Origin: Lachnospiraceae bacterium | GTDB taxonomy: Bacteria; Bacillota; Clostridia; Lachnospirales; Lachnospiraceae | Assembly (NCBI GenBank): GCA_017546025.1 | Contig: JAFYYS010000007.1 | Span: 1-57,964, forward strand | Direction of reading: 5' to 3' | DNA: 57,964 nt | Shown here: piece after piece, positions 5,489 through 44,547 of the stretch | Layout: every line of letters begins with the position of its first letter | Position numbering within the stretch: the stretch's first letter is position 1 | The notes under the pieces: model-generated | Told to the model about the DNA's origin: nothing | Seen by the model: the letters and a program-made list of their open reading frames with translations, nothing else | Database searches by the model: none | Program-made: the position numbers and the translations under genes

Positions 5489-6730
5489 TTAGTTCTCTCT
5501 GTGGTCGAAAACTCTCTTCGCCTTCTTCTCGGTTCGCGGAAGCGTTCCGATCGGAACGACAGTGATCTTCGGCGTTACGCTCATGCGGGACTTGAACAGG
5601 TCACGGATGGTTGCGGCGGTGCGCTCGAAGTTCACGCGGCCCTCTGCCTCGACGGTAACCAGGATGACATCCTTATTGATTTCTTCGTCGTGCGCGATAT
5701 CAATCTTGTACTCACTCGATACGCCGTCCACCAAACCGAGGAGCTCTTCCACCTGACTCGGAAACATATTCACGCCGTGTACCTTGAACATGTCGTCGCT
5801 GCGGCCCTTGATGATGTCAAGGCGCGGGTATTTGCTGCCGCAGGGACACTCGCCCGGAATGATGCGGGAGATATCATGCGTACGGAAGCGGATCAGCGGA
5901 GCGCCTTCCTTCACAAGCGTCGTGATGACGATTTCGCCCTCTTCGCCGTCCGGAACGTTCTCGCCGGTCTTCGGATCGATGATTTCGATGTATACGTAGT
6001 CATCCCAGTAATGCATGCCGGTGTCATACTGACAGTTGATGCCGATGCCCGGTCCGTAAATCTCGGTCAGACCGTAGATGTCGTAAAGCTCTACGCCGAG
6101 TTCCTCGTGGATGTACTTACGCATCTTGTCGCTCCAGCGCTCGGAACCGAACACGCCCTTCTTCAGGTGAATCTTGTCCTTGATGCCGCGGCGGTTGATT
6201 TCTTCCGCCAGCAGAAGTGCGTAGGAGGACGTTGCGGTAATGACCGTGGACTTCAGGTCCATCATCATCTGCAGCTGCTTCTCGGTGTTGCCGGGGCCGG
6301 TCGGAATGGCCATGGCGCCGAGTTTCTCACAGCCTGCCTGAAAACCGATGCCTGCGGTCCACAGGCCGTAGCCGGGCGTAATCTGGATGCGGTCCTTGTT
6401 CGTGATGCCTGCCATCTCATAGCAGCGCGCGAACATGATGGCCCAGTCATCTACGTCCTTAGCGGTGTAGGGGATGATAACCGGTTTGCCGGTCGTTCCC
6501 GAGGAAGAATGGATGCGGACAACCTCCTCGTCCGGAACCGCCTGGATTCCGAGCGGGTACGCGTTACGAAGGTCAGCCTTGCTCGAGAAAGGAAGCTTCT
6601 CGAACTCTTCCTGACCGGCGCAGCCGGTGATGCCGGCCTCCTCAAAAACCTTGCCGTAGTAGCTTCCAGATTTGATGAGGCGCTTAATCTGCGCATCCAC
6701 CTGACGAAGCTGTGTCTCATTTAACTTCAT
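5489..6730 (-). CDS. paaK: Phenylacetate-CoA ligase
   Basis: This 413-aa member of the adenylate-forming superfamily has the P-loop-like SSSGTTGKPVIIPYT motif near residue 95-110 and DIYGLTEIYGPG near 237, characteristic of PaaK. It converts aryl acetates to CoA thioesters with ATP in the cytoplasm. It starts at ATG 6730 behind AGGAG and overlaps the end of iorB by 14 bases. Linkage to iorAB is common in anaerobes, where indolepyruvate ferredoxin oxidoreductase yields arylacetyl-CoA; the ligase can interconvert acid and thioester. The preferred substrate (phenylacetate or indoleacetate) cannot be decided here. Length is slightly below the ~430 aa typical of the family. Confidence 0.9.
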   Translation of the reverse strand: MKLNETQLRQVDAQIKRLIKSGSYYGKVFEEAGITGCAGQEEFEKLPFSSKADLRNAYPLGIQAVPDEEVVRIHSSSGTTGKPVIIPYTAKDVDDWAIMFARCYEMAGITNKDRIQITPGYGLWTAGIGFQAGCEKLGAMAIPTGPGNTEKQLQMMMDLKSTVITATSSYALLLAEEINRRGIKDKIHLKKGVFGSERWSDKMRKYIHEELGVELYDIYGLTEIYGPGIGINCQYDTGMHYWDDYVYIEIIDPKTGENVPDGEEGEIVITTLVKEGAPLIRFRTHDISRIIPGECPCGSKYPRLDIIKGRSDDMFKVHGVNMFPSQVEELLGLVDGVSSEYKIDIAHDEEINKDVILVTVEAEGRVNFERTAATIRDLFKSRMSVTPKITVVPIGTLPRTEKKAKRVFDHREN

Positions 6731-7313
6731 ATTGTGCTCCTATCTCCGCGCCTGCCTGAAACGCGGCTTTATTGGCTTCCAGATATTTGGCCGGAACTCT
6801 CCGCTCGATTTCGCGGAGAATGATCTCCTTTGCGATGCCGAGTCTGCCGGACGCTGCCGCCACACCGAGAATCGCGATGTTAAAGTACCGGCTTGAGCCG
6901 AACGGGCGGCAAAGCGCCTCGCCGTCTACGACGATGCAGGTACATTTCTTTTTGAGATAAGCAATCATTTCGGTTCCGTCATATCCGGTCGGCATAAGCG
7001 ATTCGGTAACCGGCTTCACGGGAACGCTGTTTACGATGACGATTCCGTCCGGCTTCAGATACCGGAGGTTTCGAACCGCCTCCGCGGGCTCAAAGGAAAG
7101 AATCATGTCGGCGCTTCCGAACGGGATAAGCGGCGAATACGCTTCCTCGCCGATGCGAACATGGCTCGTTACCGGGCCGCCGCGCTGCGCCATTCCGATG
7201 GTTTCGGCGGAGTGAACGAGGTCTCCGGCTTCCATCGCCGAAGCCGCAATGATTTTAGAGGCAAGGACGGTTCCCTGACCGCCGACGCCGCAAATTAAGA
7301 TATCCTTCTTCAT
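6717..7313 (-). CDS. iorB: Indolepyruvate ferredoxin oxidoreductase, beta subunit
   Basis: This 198-aa protein is of the pyruvate:ferredoxin oxidoreductase gamma-domain type. The N-terminal ILICGVGGQGTVLASKI and the AETIGMAQRGGPV motif are diagnostic of IorB. It pairs with IorA to decarboxylate aryl 2-oxoacids oxidatively to aryl-acyl-CoA and reduced ferredoxin. Its ATG overlaps the iorA stop codon in an ATGA arrangement behind AGGAGGTGA, so the subunits are translationally coupled. Confidence 0.93.
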   Translation of the reverse strand: MKKDILICGVGGQGTVLASKIIAASAMEAGDLVHSAETIGMAQRGGPVTSHVRIGEEAYSPLIPFGSADMILSFEPAEAVRNLRYLKPDGIVIVNSVPVKPVTESLMPTGYDGTEMIAYLKKKCTCIVVDGEALCRPFGSSRYFNIAILGVAAASGRLGIAKEIILREIERRVPAKYLEANKAAFQAGAEIGAQYEVK

Positions 7314-9103
7314 TGCGTCACCTCCTGAATCGCATCAACCGGGCAGATCTGCGAGCAAAGTCCGCAGCCGGTACACAGGTTCGGATCAATCGTTACGCGT
7401 CCGTTCACACGGATCAGGCCGGGACAGCCGATTTCCTTGATGCATTTGCCGCAGTTGAGGCACCCGCCGGTGATATGGCATTTGCCAACAGGCTTTGAAA
7501 TCGCCACGCAGGGCGACTTAAAGATAATCGCTTTTACGCCGGGCAGGTCCGCGCACATGCGGACGGCGCCCATCGCCTCATTCAGATTAAGCGGATCAAC
7601 GGTCACAACCTTCGAAACGCCGATACCCGTAAGCACCGAAGCGATGTCCACCTTCTCGACGATGTCTCCCATCATGTTGCGTCCGGTTCCCGGATGCGGC
7701 TGGTGGCCGGTCATCGCGGTCGTCGAATTGTCAAGCACGCACAGAATCATGTTGGCATTGTTGTAAACCGCATTCACGACGCCGGTCATGCCCGAGGCGA
7801 AGAAGGTCGAATCTCCGACAAATGCAAAGCCGATTCCTTCCTTGTCCATCCACGTGAAGCCCTGCGCCATCGTGATGCCGGCGCCCATGCAAAGGCAGGT
7901 GTCGCACATATCAAGCGGCATCGCATTGCCGAGCGTGTAGCAGCCGATGTCGCCGCAGAAATAGCAGTTGCGCCCCTTCATCGCTTTCTTGACCGCATAG
8001 AACGAAGCGCGGTGCGGGCAGCCTGCGCAAAGAACCGGCGGGCGTACCGGAAGCTCCGGCGCATCGCTCACATCGATTTCCGAGGCTTCTCCCGGAAGCT
8101 CGAGATATTTCCGAAGGATTCCGGCAATCAGGTTCGTGCTCAGTTCGCCGCTTGCGGGAACGTCTCCGGTCAGCTTGCCGCGAATCGTAAGGACGATGCC
8201 GTTTCGGCCGCAAAGCCTTGCAATCTGCTCCTCGTTATAGGGGCTTAATTCCTCAAGGCTTAACACCTCGGTTACGCCTTCAAGAGCCTTCTTCACAAAC
8301 GACTCCGGAAAAGGATACGGCGTCCCGATTCGGATCAGCTTCACGTCCGGATAATCCTCCAGGAATTCCTTCGCGTAAGCGTAGCTGATGCCCGAGGCAA
8401 CAACTGCCTTTTTGGAATTGCCGCCCTCGACGGTATTGAAGCGGTATGAGGAGAATTCCTCGCCGATTTCGACATTGCGCTTTTCAATCATCGCGTGATT
8501 GGCGAATGAAAGGCGCGGGAAAATGACCCACTTCTTCGAATTCTTGATGAAGCCGGACACGCGGTTCGGCTCGAACTTCTCCGGGCGGTCAATCGCCGCG
8601 TAGGCGTGATCCACACGGGTCGTCGGGCGAAACAGCACCGGCGTTGCATACTTTTCCGAGCACTCGTAGGCGTCCTGAATCATCTCGTACGCCTCTTCGG
8701 GCGAGCTCGGGTCAAATACGGGAATCCGCGCGAATTCCGCAAACCGTCTCGTATCCTGCTCGGTCTGCGAGGAAATCGGGCCCGGATCATCGGCCGAAAC
8801 CACGACCATGCCGCCCTTGACGCCGACATAGGCAAGAGACATCAACGGATCGGAAGCCACATTCAGTCCGACCTGCTTCATCGTCACCAGCGTCCGCGCT
8901 CCGCTGTATGCGGCCGCGGCGGCAACCTCCATGGCGGCCTTTTCATTGACCGACCACTCTACATGAACGCCCTCCGGCTTTGCTTTCGCAACCGTCTCGA
9001 CGATTTCCGAGGAAGGCGTTCCGGGATATCCCGAAACGAGATTGACACCGGCCTTCAGCGCGCCGTATGCAATCGCTCCGTTACCCATTACATATTCTTT
9101 CAT
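7310..9103 (-). CDS. iorA: Indolepyruvate ferredoxin oxidoreductase, alpha subunit
   Basis: This protein of about 597 aa has the N-terminal pyrimidine-binding domain (GNGAIAYGALKAGVNLVSGYPGTP), a mid-protein CAGCPHRASFY segment and the thiamine-diphosphate-binding GDSTFFASG region. Its C-terminal ferredoxin domain has two cysteine clusters (CLNCGKCIKEIGC and CTGCGLCSQICP), predicted to bind two 4Fe-4S centres. I place the start at ATG 9103, five bases after GGAG, rather than the GTG two codons upstream. The enzyme acts in the cytoplasm in aromatic amino acid fermentation. It is transcribed just downstream of the DUF4236 gene with a 29-base gap. Confidence 0.93.
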   Translation of the reverse strand: MKEYVMGNGAIAYGALKAGVNLVSGYPGTPSSEIVETVAKAKPEGVHVEWSVNEKAAMEVAAAAAYSGARTLVTMKQVGLNVASDPLMSLAYVGVKGGMVVVSADDPGPISSQTEQDTRRFAEFARIPVFDPSSPEEAYEMIQDAYECSEKYATPVLFRPTTRVDHAYAAIDRPEKFEPNRVSGFIKNSKKWVIFPRLSFANHAMIEKRNVEIGEEFSSYRFNTVEGGNSKKAVVASGISYAYAKEFLEDYPDVKLIRIGTPYPFPESFVKKALEGVTEVLSLEELSPYNEEQIARLCGRNGIVLTIRGKLTGDVPASGELSTNLIAGILRKYLELPGEASEIDVSDAPELPVRPPVLCAGCPHRASFYAVKKAMKGRNCYFCGDIGCYTLGNAMPLDMCDTCLCMGAGITMAQGFTWMDKEGIGFAFVGDSTFFASGMTGVVNAVYNNANMILCVLDNSTTAMTGHQPHPGTGRNMMGDIVEKVDIASVLTGIGVSKVVTVDPLNLNEAMGAVRMCADLPGVKAIIFKSPCVAISKPVGKCHITGGCLNCGKCIKEIGCPGLIRVNGRVTIDPNLCTGCGLCSQICPVDAIQEVTQ

Positions 9104-41620: not shown

Positions 41621-41728
41621 CTAACGAATAAACATTTCAATCAACTCTTCCGAACACTTTTGAACATCATCAGGGAGATTCATCTTGTTATAAATCTCTT
41701 CCTGAGTAATGATGCTTGCATCGGACAA
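41621..41728 (-). CDS. 35-codon open frame directly after the protease stop
   Basis: The protease ends in a TAG codon at 41729-41731. The next codon in the same frame is TTG, and 35 sense codons follow before TAG at 41621. The peptide (LSDASIITQEEIYNKM..., rich in acidic and Gln/Asn residues, ending EMFIR) looks protein-like. There is no ribosome binding site, so reinitiation, stop-codon readthrough, or a lost C-terminal extension are the options. I cannot say it is expressed. Confidence 0.3.
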   Translation of the reverse strand: MSDASIITQEEIYNKMNLPDDVQKCSEELIEMFIR

Positions 41729-43009
41729 CTAGTATACTGTAAAAGTGATTGAACCGCTTTGCAAAGCGGCAATGTCATTGGACATTTTCGTGAAGTAGGA
41801 CTCCGTCACCGCACCGCCCAAAACAATTCCAATTGCACTCGCATGATTACTTGTATCAGGCTTTGTGAATACAATTCCACCACTATCTCCAGGCGCAGCA
41901 TATGCCCCGGTTATAACTATATCCGAATACGTAACACCATTTAGAGTAATTGTCGCAGAACTATTTGTAACAGATCCATATGTTAACCCTGTGGATTCCC
42001 CTCGTTTATACACCGGAGACCCCATACTTGTAGAATATCCAGAATTCAACGTAATTGTCTGCAGATATACGGTATTATAAAGGGTGGTTGTCGCGTTTGT
42101 CTCTATGAATGCAACATCTGCGCTTCCACCTTTAACCTGTAGGCTCGAATTTGACGTTCCAACCAGAGTATTGCCGAACGGTCCCGTAACTATGTATACA
42201 TTAGACGTTCCAGTAAATGCATGTGCACATGTCAAAAACCCATATGTATATGTTCCCCCAGGGAAATTTCTTCTTACTCTACAGGCAACGCTGAATTGGT
42301 AACTTGATGAATTGGATGTTGTTGCTCCTTCACCCGCATACAATCCAACATAGTATTGAGGCTCAAGTTCCACGACAGAAACCGAGTAAATGTCGCTATC
42401 CAAACTCCCGCTGACATACTCATAATCGGCTTGTGACCCGACTCTGACATCAATAACATTTCTATAATCATTTATTCCCGCGCTGATAATTGATATTCCT
42501 GCATCAGAGAATTCTACAGATTTATTCCCATATGTTATATCCGAAATTGCATCAATTAATTCCGAATAAGAATATCTTACCTGGTGGCAATAAAAATCCT
42601 CACAGTTGACAATATCGACGAAAGATTGGTACCAATCACATTGTCGGTATTCTTCGGGAAAACAATCATCAGCGATTTGAACTATCAGCTGCCCATTAGT
42701 ATTGATATAAAATCCTGCGAAAAAAACCGGATAATCTTCCGCTCGAATTCCATTCACCGTATATATTGCACTATTAAATGTGATTCCATATACCTCATTT
42801 AAGCGACCAAAGAATCTGCTAGTAATTGTGTTTGCCTCTTGAAGATTCTCCCAGAATGAATCAGAAAGGTCCTCTGCCTGCTCATTTAATTCCAGCGAAA
42901 CTCCTTCGCTTGCCAGAGCCAATCGTTTCCCGCCTTTGCTCAATGAAAATGGTAAGACCATCAGCATAATCCCGGCAACAATTGCCCTTCCGCGCTTAAA
43001 TTTTCTCAT
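41729..43009 (-). CDS. Secreted S1 (trypsin/streptogrisin-type) serine protease with pro-domain
   Basis: This 426-aa protein has a positively charged N-terminus with a hydrophobic segment (residues ~9-22), a pro-region (~45-215) and an S1 catalytic domain. The triad is His263 (TCAHAF), Asp298 (ADVAF) and Ser376 (APGDSGG). The pro-region, around YTVNGIRAEDYP and CDWYQ, is strongly similar to the extracytoplasmic domain of the neighbouring anti-sigma factor. It follows the sigma/anti-sigma pair on the same strand behind AGGAGAAGGAGG, so it is probably part of the operon. The gene is visibly more A+T rich than its neighbours, which hints at acquisition by transfer. Confidence 0.85.
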   Translation of the reverse strand: MRKFKRGRAIVAGIMLMVLPFSLSKGGKRLALASEGVSLELNEQAEDLSDSFWENLQEANTITSRFFGRLNEVYGITFNSAIYTVNGIRAEDYPVFFAGFYINTNGQLIVQIADDCFPEEYRQCDWYQSFVDIVNCEDFYCHQVRYSYSELIDAISDITYGNKSVEFSDAGISIISAGINDYRNVIDVRVGSQADYEYVSGSLDSDIYSVSVVELEPQYYVGLYAGEGATTSNSSSYQFSVACRVRRNFPGGTYTYGFLTCAHAFTGTSNVYIVTGPFGNTLVGTSNSSLQVKGGSADVAFIETNATTTLYNTVYLQTITLNSGYSTSMGSPVYKRGESTGLTYGSVTNSSATITLNGVTYSDIVITGAYAAPGDSGGIVFTKPDTSNHASAIGIVLGGAVTESYFTKMSNDIAALQSGSITFTVY

Positions 43010-43060
43010 AACAATCCATCCTCCTTCTCCTAATAATATCCGCGTTAAAGAATCTCATTT

Positions 43061-43888
43061 CTACCACCAAACATTTTGCTCTCCGACAACTTCCGTCCAA
43101 AACATATCACTCGGAAGCAGCGCTTTCACTTTCGCGGCGTCCTCCTCCGATTTGAGTCTGATTTTGATTCTGTTATCCGGATCATAAAAGCCGATGCTGA
43201 CTGCTTCTACACCTGCATCCTTCATTGCATTGGAGAGGCCGCCAAAGGTTGCGTCAGACATTCCGTTAATTAAATCCGTATAATTGTATTTCACGGGACG
43301 ACAGGCAAAGTCCTCGCTTCCAAACAAACCGGCCAGTTCTTTGTACCAATCGCACTTGCGATAGTTCTTTTCGTAATACGTCTCTTTTACAAGAACAATA
43401 ACCTTACCGTCTACATTGATATAGTTTCCGGCGTAATAATCCGGATATCCGTCTGCCGTAATCGAATTAACCGTGTATGTTCCCGTGGCATTTGCTGCTT
43501 TGTATTTTCCTGAATATGGCAATCCTTTATGGAAACGGTCTATCATTTCAGAGGATTGTTTAAAATTCTTATCGAATTGACTTGTCGTTGTCGGAGAATT
43601 GCTTTGCCCGAAATCATACGCTTCAAAGGAGTAGTTGTCAGCATAAGCCTTATGAGGAAATAAAACTCCCTTAAGGATAAGCCCCAGGACCAATACCGCT
43701 ACAACTGTTACGCCGGCAAAAACAATTCCGGTTCGCCGATGTGTCCTACTCTCGCTTGACAACGCCGAAGAAGCCTCCGGTTGTAAATCAAACTCCTTCT
43801 GCATCTTTTCAAAGAATCCTTCAGAAGGACCGAAATCCGTTTCCTCCATCATAGTAATAATGCGTCGATCCGTTAATTTTTCACTCAT
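43061..43888 (-). CDS. Membrane anti-sigma factor with a protease-pro-domain-like sensor
   Basis: This 275-aa protein has a cytoplasmic N-terminus (~1-53), one membrane helix (~54-77) and an extracytoplasmic domain (~135-265). The outer domain shares with the adjacent protease pro-region the words YTVN.I.A..YP, AG.YIN..G, YR.CDWY, EDF.C..V.Y.Y..LI and a DAG...IS.G segment, a clear homology seen by eye. ATG 43888 overlaps the sigma-factor stop (ATGAGTGA). The orientation and overlap suggest anti-sigma function; the shared domain suggests it senses the protease or the same ligand. Confidence 0.75.
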   Translation of the reverse strand: MSEKLTDRRIITMMEETDFGPSEGFFEKMQKEFDLQPEASSALSSESRTHRRTGIVFAGVTVVAVLVLGLILKGVLFPHKAYADNYSFEAYDFGQSNSPTTTSQFDKNFKQSSEMIDRFHKGLPYSGKYKAANATGTYTVNSITADGYPDYYAGNYINVDGKVIVLVKETYYEKNYRKCDWYKELAGLFGSEDFACRPVKYNYTDLINGMSDATFGGLSNAMKDAGVEAVSIGFYDPDNRIKIRLKSEEDAAKVKALLPSDMFWTEVVGEQNVWW

Positions 43889-44381
43889 TGTATACACCGC
43901 CTTTCAACGATTCCCGAAGGCTTTTGACTGCCCGTCGGTATCTTCTGTAAACCGCCGAAAGCGACATTCCGGTCACTTTAGAAATCTCTGCGAACCCGAT
44001 TCCTCCTTTTATATGAAGCAGGATAATCTGTCGTTCATCCGAAGGAAGTTTGGCAACGGCCTCCTCGATTTCATTCGACAAAACACACGTCCCGACTTCG
44101 TCTTCGGGCGTGTCTTTGACGGGAATCTCGGCTACCGGCTCTTCTCTCCCTTTCTTCTTCAGGCACTCAACCGCCTGATTGCGGGCCATTTTCAACAGAT
44201 AATTCTTCAGGTTCCGTATTCGCTTTGGTTCTTCCATTTGAAAGTAGGCGAGAAATACATTATGAGCGACATCCTCAGCATCCTCTTTGTTTCCGAGGAT
44301 TCCGTATGCAACAAAGTACACCGGTTTGATATACTGAAGATATACCTGTTCAAAGGTTGAACGCGTCTGCTGAATATCCAT
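43881..44381 (-). CDS. ECF-type RNA polymerase sigma factor
   Basis: This 166-aa protein has region 2 (LGNKEDAEDVAHNVFLAYFQ, LKNYLLKMARNQAVECLKKKG) and region 4 (LPSDERQIILLHIKGGIGFAEISKVTGMSLSAVYRRYRRAV). I start it at ATG 44381 behind GGGAGGG; the longer frame start reads through the upstream intergenic DNA. It is first in the sigma/anti-sigma/protease operon and probably controls its own transcription, as such modules usually do. Confidence 0.9.
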   Translation of the reverse strand: MDIQQTRSTFEQVYLQYIKPVYFVAYGILGNKEDAEDVAHNVFLAYFQMEEPKRIRNLKNYLLKMARNQAVECLKKKGREEPVAEIPVKDTPEDEVGTCVLSNEIEEAVAKLPSDERQIILLHIKGGIGFAEISKVTGMSLSAVYRRYRRAVKSLRESLKGGVYNE

Positions 44382-44509
44382 ACGTGTTGCCCTCCCTGAT
44401 AACTCAGTGTATTCTTTCCACCTTCTGTTAATATGTCTGTTTTGCCCTCCGCTTTTTTCGGGGTGTACAATGGAATTCACACATTTTTCACAATTACGGA
44501 AAATGACAC

Positions 44510-44547
44510 AATGAGCCTTCCGTTTCCACAGAAACAAAAGGCTCATT
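44510..44547 (-). terminator. Terminator after glgD
   Basis: A 10-bp stem AATGAGCCTT/AAGGCTCATT encloses a second stem GTTTC/GAAAC. It lies about 50 bases past the glgD stop, and the following bases are only moderately T-rich. Confidence 0.6.

Follow-up and report, generated by a model that had tools for sequence, protein, structure and literature searches.

An ECF sigma factor operon in which the putative anti-sigma factor carries a relative of the pro-domain of the neighbouring S1 protease

In the window, the whole stretch of 57,964 nucleotides of Lachnospiraceae DNA that was analysed, a minus-strand operon was found to encode an ECF-type sigma factor, a membrane protein that probably acts as its anti-sigma factor, and an S1 serine protease precursor. 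The outer sensor domain of the putative anti-sigma factor is homologous to the pro-domain of the protease. We tentatively propose that the sensor is a membrane-tethered pro region that serves as a receptor for a mature S1 protease, so that capture of the enzyme would be followed by cleavage and release of the sigma factor.

Operon organization

The features of the operon, from the promoter-like block to the end of the protease gene and beyond, were as follows:

44453..44495, minus strand, promoter-like block upstream of the sigma gene, AATTGTGAAAAATGTGTGAATTC-N10-CCCGAAAAAA (conserved in genome G777)
43881..44381, minus strand, ECF-type sigma factor with regions 2 and 4 (Pfam and NCBIfam)
43061..43897, minus strand, putative anti-sigma factor (ORF; AF2 model m11607af75156)
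43640..43648, minus strand, AYA motif, signal-peptidase-like, anti-sigma residues 84-86, just past the membrane helix (by eye)
43067..43474, minus strand, pro-region-like sensor domain, anti-sigma residues 142-277
41729..43009, minus strand, S1 serine protease precursor (triad columns, Foldseek, PDB phmmer)
42350..42760, minus strand, protease pro-domain (profile match over residues 84-220)
41621..41728, minus strand, remnant of a lipoprotein gene, 35 C-terminal codons directly past the protease stop (match to the end of a G792 ORF)

The sigma factor contains Sigma-70 regions 2 and 4 only and has the size of an ECF protein. It matched Sigma70_r2 (8.4e-10) and Sigma70_r4_2 (8e-12) in Pfam and sigma70-ECF (2.9e-22) in NCBIfam. 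The ATG at 44381 was the preferred start within a longer ORF (43881-44546). The initial annotation had described a sigma gene overlapping an anti-sigma gene, with the protease 51 bases later, and the coordinates on the minus strand agree: the anti-sigma gene (43897-43061) overlaps the sigma gene by 17 bases, and a gap of 51 bases separates it from the protease gene (43009-41729).

Upstream of the sigma gene, the two conserved elements of the promoter-like block, separated by ten unlike bases, were common to the window and G777, and the core pattern was also present in the sister genome G792. No second copy was found in the window's own genome, either exact or with up to 3 mismatches in the 20 set bases. 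Judging from the sequence, the block may be a promoter read by the operon's own sigma factor, with the operon as its sole clear target.

The second gene, downstream of the sigma gene and overlapping it, encodes a protein with a short cytosolic part and one membrane helix, as seen by hydropathy and model only. In the AF2 model, residues 10-37 form an N-terminal helical part of low confidence, and residues 54-79 form a long hydrophobic helix that is followed by a confidently predicted outer domain. No anti-sigma domain family, e.g., the zinc-binding ASD, was matched in Pfam or NCBIfam at E ≤ 1. The name 'anti-sigma' therefore rests on position and topology, and the overlap with the sigma gene together with this topology points to an anti-sigma role. 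The DUF4163/DUF3298 ectodomain of the RsiV family was also absent (no Pfam match at E ≤ 1). The sensor domain spans residues 142-277 of 278, leaving one residue before the end of the protein. The aromatic residues at its C-terminus in the window (WW) are not conserved in the relatives from G777 and G068. At the position corresponding to the AYA motif of the window, the G777 orthologue has AHA (by eye).

In the third gene product, the catalytic triad H263, D298 and S376 was found in His-Asp-Ser order in invariant alignment columns, and the residues were checked. Foldseek matched the protease to Streptomyces griseus protease B (SGPB; 9.2e-14) and alpha-lytic protease (about 1e-12), and phmmer against the PDB also returned SGPB (5.2e-4). 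With an intact triad and a chymotrypsin fold matched by Foldseek, the original assignment to the streptogrisin-type S1 proteases was upheld. The AF2 block means over the pro-domain were mostly above 90, and the placing of the pro-domain relative to the protease was unsure in the precursor model (pTM 0.55). The protease also resembled the plant protein Nal1: Pfam Nal1_C was matched at 5.6e-5, below that family's cut-off, and the best Nal1 chain in Foldseek had an E of 3.1e-11 with a poor overall superposition.

Homology between the sensor domain and the protease pro-domain

BLASTP aligned residues 107-271 of the anti-sigma protein to residues 51-213 of the protease precursor with 36% identity and 57% positives over 165 amino acids (E 3e-34). 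The motifs that had been noticed in both proteins (YTVN, YRxCDWY, EDFxC, DAG etc.) were present in this alignment. When the anti-sigma protein was searched against its own 2.2 Mb genome, the matches at E ≤ 0.001 were the protein itself and the protease only (E 1.1e-31 for the protease). A third, distant copy of the domain was found on contig 5 with a broader profile (E 4.7e-9).

Sigma-linked copies of the domain occur in two topologies. Among 55 domain rows, 10 sigma-linked copies, including that of the window, have the membrane helix ahead of the domain (type II). In another 10 (type I), the domain follows a signal-like start and precedes a membrane helix and a tail. Comparison of profiles by hhalign matched the type II sensors to the protease pro-domains at 3.4e-22 and the type I sensors at 1.3e-12.

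The AF2 model of the sensor has the fold of the alpha-lytic pro-region chain (2pro/3pro/4pro). Residues 99-278 of the model were aligned to residues 14-166 of 4pro_C, so that the alignment reached the last sensor residue. The same pro region was the top PDB match for the profile built from all contexts (A2; 2pro/3pro/4pro, 3.5e-5), for the protease pro-domains alone (A7; 1.3e-3) and for the type I sensors alone (A8; 8.7e-3). The type II sensors alone (A6) gave no pro-region match in the PDB, and phmmer against the PDB with the single sensor sequence returned chance matches only. The Pfam families matched at E ≤ 0.1 by 30 domain members include no curated pro-domain model.

The initial annotation had proposed that the sensor is homologous to the protease pro-domain and had suggested aligning the two and comparing their profiles and structures. 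Both the identity (36%, E 3e-34) and the fold and profile results bear this out, since the sensor and the pro-domain match each other and the alpha-lytic pro region. Membership of the two domains in the alpha-lytic protease pro-region family, by predicted fold and profile, is thus supported.

Probable operon exchange among relatives

The sigma and anti-sigma genes of G792 share 99.4% DNA identity with those of the window, compared with 91.4 and 92.0% for the next two genes, presumably glgD and glgC, so the pair probably moved or recombined as a block. A lipoprotein-like gene stands in G792 where the window has the protease, and the window keeps its last 35 codons. In the comparison of window positions 43061-44381 with locus L067, the near-identical pair with a swapped third gene was a sign of recent operon exchange.

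The G777 locus contains the sigma and anti-sigma genes and a 5'-truncated protease ORF that lacks the signal peptide and the first half of the pro-domain. Because this ORF keeps the second half of its pro-domain and has no signal peptide, it looks decayed. The idea that the G777 protease had given its pro-domain to the anti-sigma factor was dropped, as the ORF retains the second half of its own. In G068, which belongs to another genus, the row begins with a sigma factor of a different group and a different short protein that resembles an anti-sigma factor; next come a stand-alone pro-domain copy, hydrophobic near its N-terminus, and then a protease.

Small lipoprotein-like proteins with the Ig-like Big_14 domain were found next after pro-domain proteases in 5/5 loci tested (L006, L008, L019, L033 and L038) and could belong to the same unit as the protease.

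Distribution and topology of the domain

A single-sequence search for relatives found one, near-identical, in the uncultured Lachnospiraceae MAG RUG14279. With the single sensor domain as query, 6 of 397 family genomes were matched. The count rose to 14/397 family genomes and 10/391 class genomes with an 8-row profile, and a 23-row profile matched 11/22 genus genomes, 9/398 phylum genomes and, at E ≤ 1e-8, 34/295 relatives; these genome sets overlap, and the window's own genome is counted in each.

Across 66 neighbourhoods, 77 ORFs with the domain were identified by home-made profiles and a crude ORF caller, namely 28 S1 proteases (whole or broken), 20 copies after a sigma gene and 29 others. 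The window, with its own sigma-linked copy and protease, comes on top of these figures; a few weak matches, e.g., G004, G878 and G1095, were left out. The other copies were often short (19/29 under 250 aa), many had an N-terminal hydrophobic stretch, and a few were partial or remnants of broken proteases. Eight of the 20 sigma-linked copies end within 8 residues past the domain; the 10 type I copies and 2 others do not.

In a domain tree of 49 rows, from which 6 short or fragmentary rows were left out, type II occurred in three separate places. Type II required 4 changes and type I required 2, and the starred branches force only 2 changes per type. The neighbouring sigma factors fell into about six groups with ≤30% identity between groups. 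The window sigma factor shares about 38% identity with most type I sigma factors, on a sigma tree with long branches. The scattered types on the domain tree and the divergent sigma groups were read as at least two recruitments of the domain.

A further sigma gene in the window's own genome has a type I regulator behind it (L080, 4753-6326; contig 5, 20752-22325). This pair adjoins FtsX-type permease-like genes and an ABC ATPase-like gene (by eye), and some other genus genomes have similar layouts. At locus L083 of G238 (5837-7456), the pro-region-like domain of a 539-aa anti-sigma-like protein is followed by a long additional C-terminal part, which recalls trigger-factor/FKBP proteins by eye and had no Pfam match at E ≤ 0.01.

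Linkage and pairing of sensors with proteases

Conserved linkage in related genomes had been named as a check on the proposal, and it was found in part. The domain recurs behind ECF sigma genes and in S1 proteases, but the trio is not conserved. When a conserved trio was sought in the genus, three arrangements were seen in the three genomes with this sigma/anti-sigma pair, and among the neighbourhoods examined the intact trio of sigma factor, anti-sigma factor and protease was present in the window only. Outside the window, an S1 gene lay within the 600-base neighbour limit of 1 of the 20 sigma-linked copies, the truncated protease of G777.

The S1 profile was also searched across whole genomes, some of which are incomplete. 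It matched weakly in 3 of the 10 genomes with orphan copies (8 sigma-linked and 2 free; best match 1.7e-5) and had no match in the other 7, as against matches in 5 of 50 comparison genomes; among the 50 is G070, which has no S1 match but carries a sigma-linked copy itself. In the genus, the profile matched 8/22 genomes at E ≤ 0.001, split evenly between the 11 genomes that have the domain and the 11 that lack it (4 each). The three strongest of these matches (below 1e-40) were all in domain-bearing genomes. These counts indicate that the sensor is not always accompanied by this protease.

On the domain tree, the window sensor, the window protease pro-domain and rows from G792, G777, G068 and G790 form one small clade. 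Free copies in G134, G699 and G1097 lie near the pro-domain of their own protease, which in G134 is encoded on another contig. Among the 11 copies whose genome also encodes a protease pro-domain, the nearest such pro-domain on the tree came from that genome in 4 cases against 0.80 expected from shuffling, and 565 of 20000 shuffles reached 4. This same-genome pairing of domain copies and protease pro-domains is no more than suggestive. The protease pro-domain closest to the window sensor was that of G068 (1.72), and that of the window ranked second (1.84).

Proposed mechanism and alternative explanations

In alpha-lytic protease, the pro region promotes folding of the enzyme and is also a tight inhibitor whose C-terminal tail occupies the active site. 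Together with the position of the domain at the end of the sensor, the precedent of RsiV and the AYA/AHA motifs, this inhibition favours a capture mechanism. Homology to the pro-domain of the adjacent protease and the same-genome pairing on the tree point the same way, as do the 7 of 29 other copies that adjoin an S1 gene. The sensor would be a receptor for a mature S1 protease, either that of the adjacent gene or one closely related to it, and would probably inhibit the enzyme. As long as no free mature protease is present, the cytosolic part of the anti-sigma factor would hold the sigma factor. Mature protease would then bind the tethered pro-domain, and perhaps cut it. The anti-sigma factor would thereby become accessible to site-1 cleavage, for which the candidates are the protease itself and signal peptidase, the latter acting at the AYA motif past the membrane helix. 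Site-2 cleavage would free the sigma factor, which would read its own promoter and so yield more sigma factor, sensor and protease. In this scheme we infer the holding of sigma, protease binding, inhibition, the cleavage route and the sign of the feedback. Several results speak against such a dedicated feedback pair: the absence of the intact trio from G792 and G777, the scarcity of S1 genes beside sigma-linked copies, the orphan and genus counts, the separate pro-domain copy of G068, the lack of a PDB match with the type II profile, the unconserved WW end, the window sensor lying closer to the G068 pro-domain than to its own, and the unsure domain placing in the precursor model.

It is conceivable, though rather doubtful, that the operon represents an ECF class in the phylum of the window in which a tethered pro region of the alpha-lytic type serves as the receptor and captures mature S1 protease. 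The cell would thus measure its own or a neighbour's active protease and switch on protease production, sensing itself at the level of an enzyme, and the design would have at least two origins with opposite topologies.

The pro-region fold might instead be a general extracytoplasmic sensor for an unrelated ligand, so that the pair in the window would be a leftover of common descent and neighbourhood. Orphan copies whose genomes have no recognisable protease of the family and the absence of a domain/S1 association in the genus counts would fit such a sensor, as would several type I sensors that adjoin ABC transporter-like genes (by eye) and the sister genome that kept the pair at 99.4% DNA identity with no protease there. 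The window sensor and pro-domain nevertheless share one small clade, with like pairing in G134, G699 and G1097, and we regard this explanation as unlikely.

Less likely again, the anchored pro-domain would be an inhibitor or foldase in the first place, shielding the envelope from the protease or assisting its folding at the membrane; its fusion to the anti-sigma factor would set the dose only, and the sigma factor would answer another signal. Copies without an anti-sigma part are indeed common, 7 of the 29 other copies adjoin an S1 gene (two of them a broken one, at L090 and L100), and the G068 copy lies between the anti-sigma-like protein and the protease. The fusion in the window and the sigma-linked copies beside several sigma groups (≤30% identity) point to signalling instead.

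We consider it improbable that the sensor detects S1 proteases of foreign origin, from neighbouring bacteria or the host, much as RsiV detects host lysozyme, with the adjacent gene as one of several exchangeable outputs. The third gene does differ between sister genomes with near-identical sigma and anti-sigma genes, and the orphan copies and the RsiV precedent would also agree with it; however, the window protease carries a matching pro-domain, which makes the cell's own enzyme the simplest ligand. Binding of both domains to a common wall or substrate ligand, with neither acting on the protease, is very improbable: RsgI anti-sigma factors sense substrates with modules such as CBM or GH10 (PMC12203970), but the sensor has a protease pro-region fold, for which the protease is the known partner, and no carbohydrate-binding Pfam family matched the sensor or the pro-domain at the thresholds used.

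Relation to known systems

The capture mechanism would place the operon with RsiV/sigmaV of Bacillus subtilis and C. difficile by analogy, as an RsiV-like enzyme-sensing anti-sigma factor with a new type of sensor. The RsiV ectodomain occupies the active site of lysozyme and inhibits it, and binding leads to cleavage by signal peptidase and then RasP (PMC5014341). The shared design is a sigma operon whose anti-sigma factor has an ectodomain that binds an enzyme, the binding in the window being proposed; an AxA motif, seen by eye, likewise follows the membrane helix of the window protein. RsiV differs in its DUF4163/DUF3298 ectodomain and its foreign enzyme, whereas the window has a relative of a serine-protease pro region and a co-encoded protease as the candidate ligand.

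The second likeness is to the alpha-lytic/streptogrisin pro region (2pro, 3pro and 4pro), which has the same predicted fold and a distant profile match with the family and the protease pro-domains. Known pro regions are part of a protease precursor, whereas in the window a further copy forms part of a putative anti-sigma factor in the membrane. Stand-alone propeptide-like inhibitors, among them the PepSY idea, have been proposed as regulators of proteases in trans; to our knowledge these have other folds, and none is fused to a sigma regulator.

The RsgI anti-sigmaI factors of Clostridium thermocellum resemble the window protein as anti-sigma factors whose sensors are modules typical of enzymes, among them CBM, GH10 and S1C peptidase-like domains. 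They differ in polysaccharide binding and an autocleaving periplasmic domain, and the part of PMC12203970 consulted names no protease pro-domain. A search of the titles and abstract starts of the open-licence PMC literature found no paper on an anti-sigma factor with a protease pro-domain.

For many sensor domains of anti-sigma factors no ligand is known, and here the fold names a testable one, the mature protease. If the proposed binding is true, this would be, as far as we know, the first anti-sigma factor that senses a protease through a mimic of its pro-domain, and it would extend the principle of RsiV from a host enzyme to a self-made enzyme. Pro-domain copies without an enzyme would then provide a search rule for similar receptors, and the free copies that adjoin proteases would be candidate inhibitors or foldases acting in trans.
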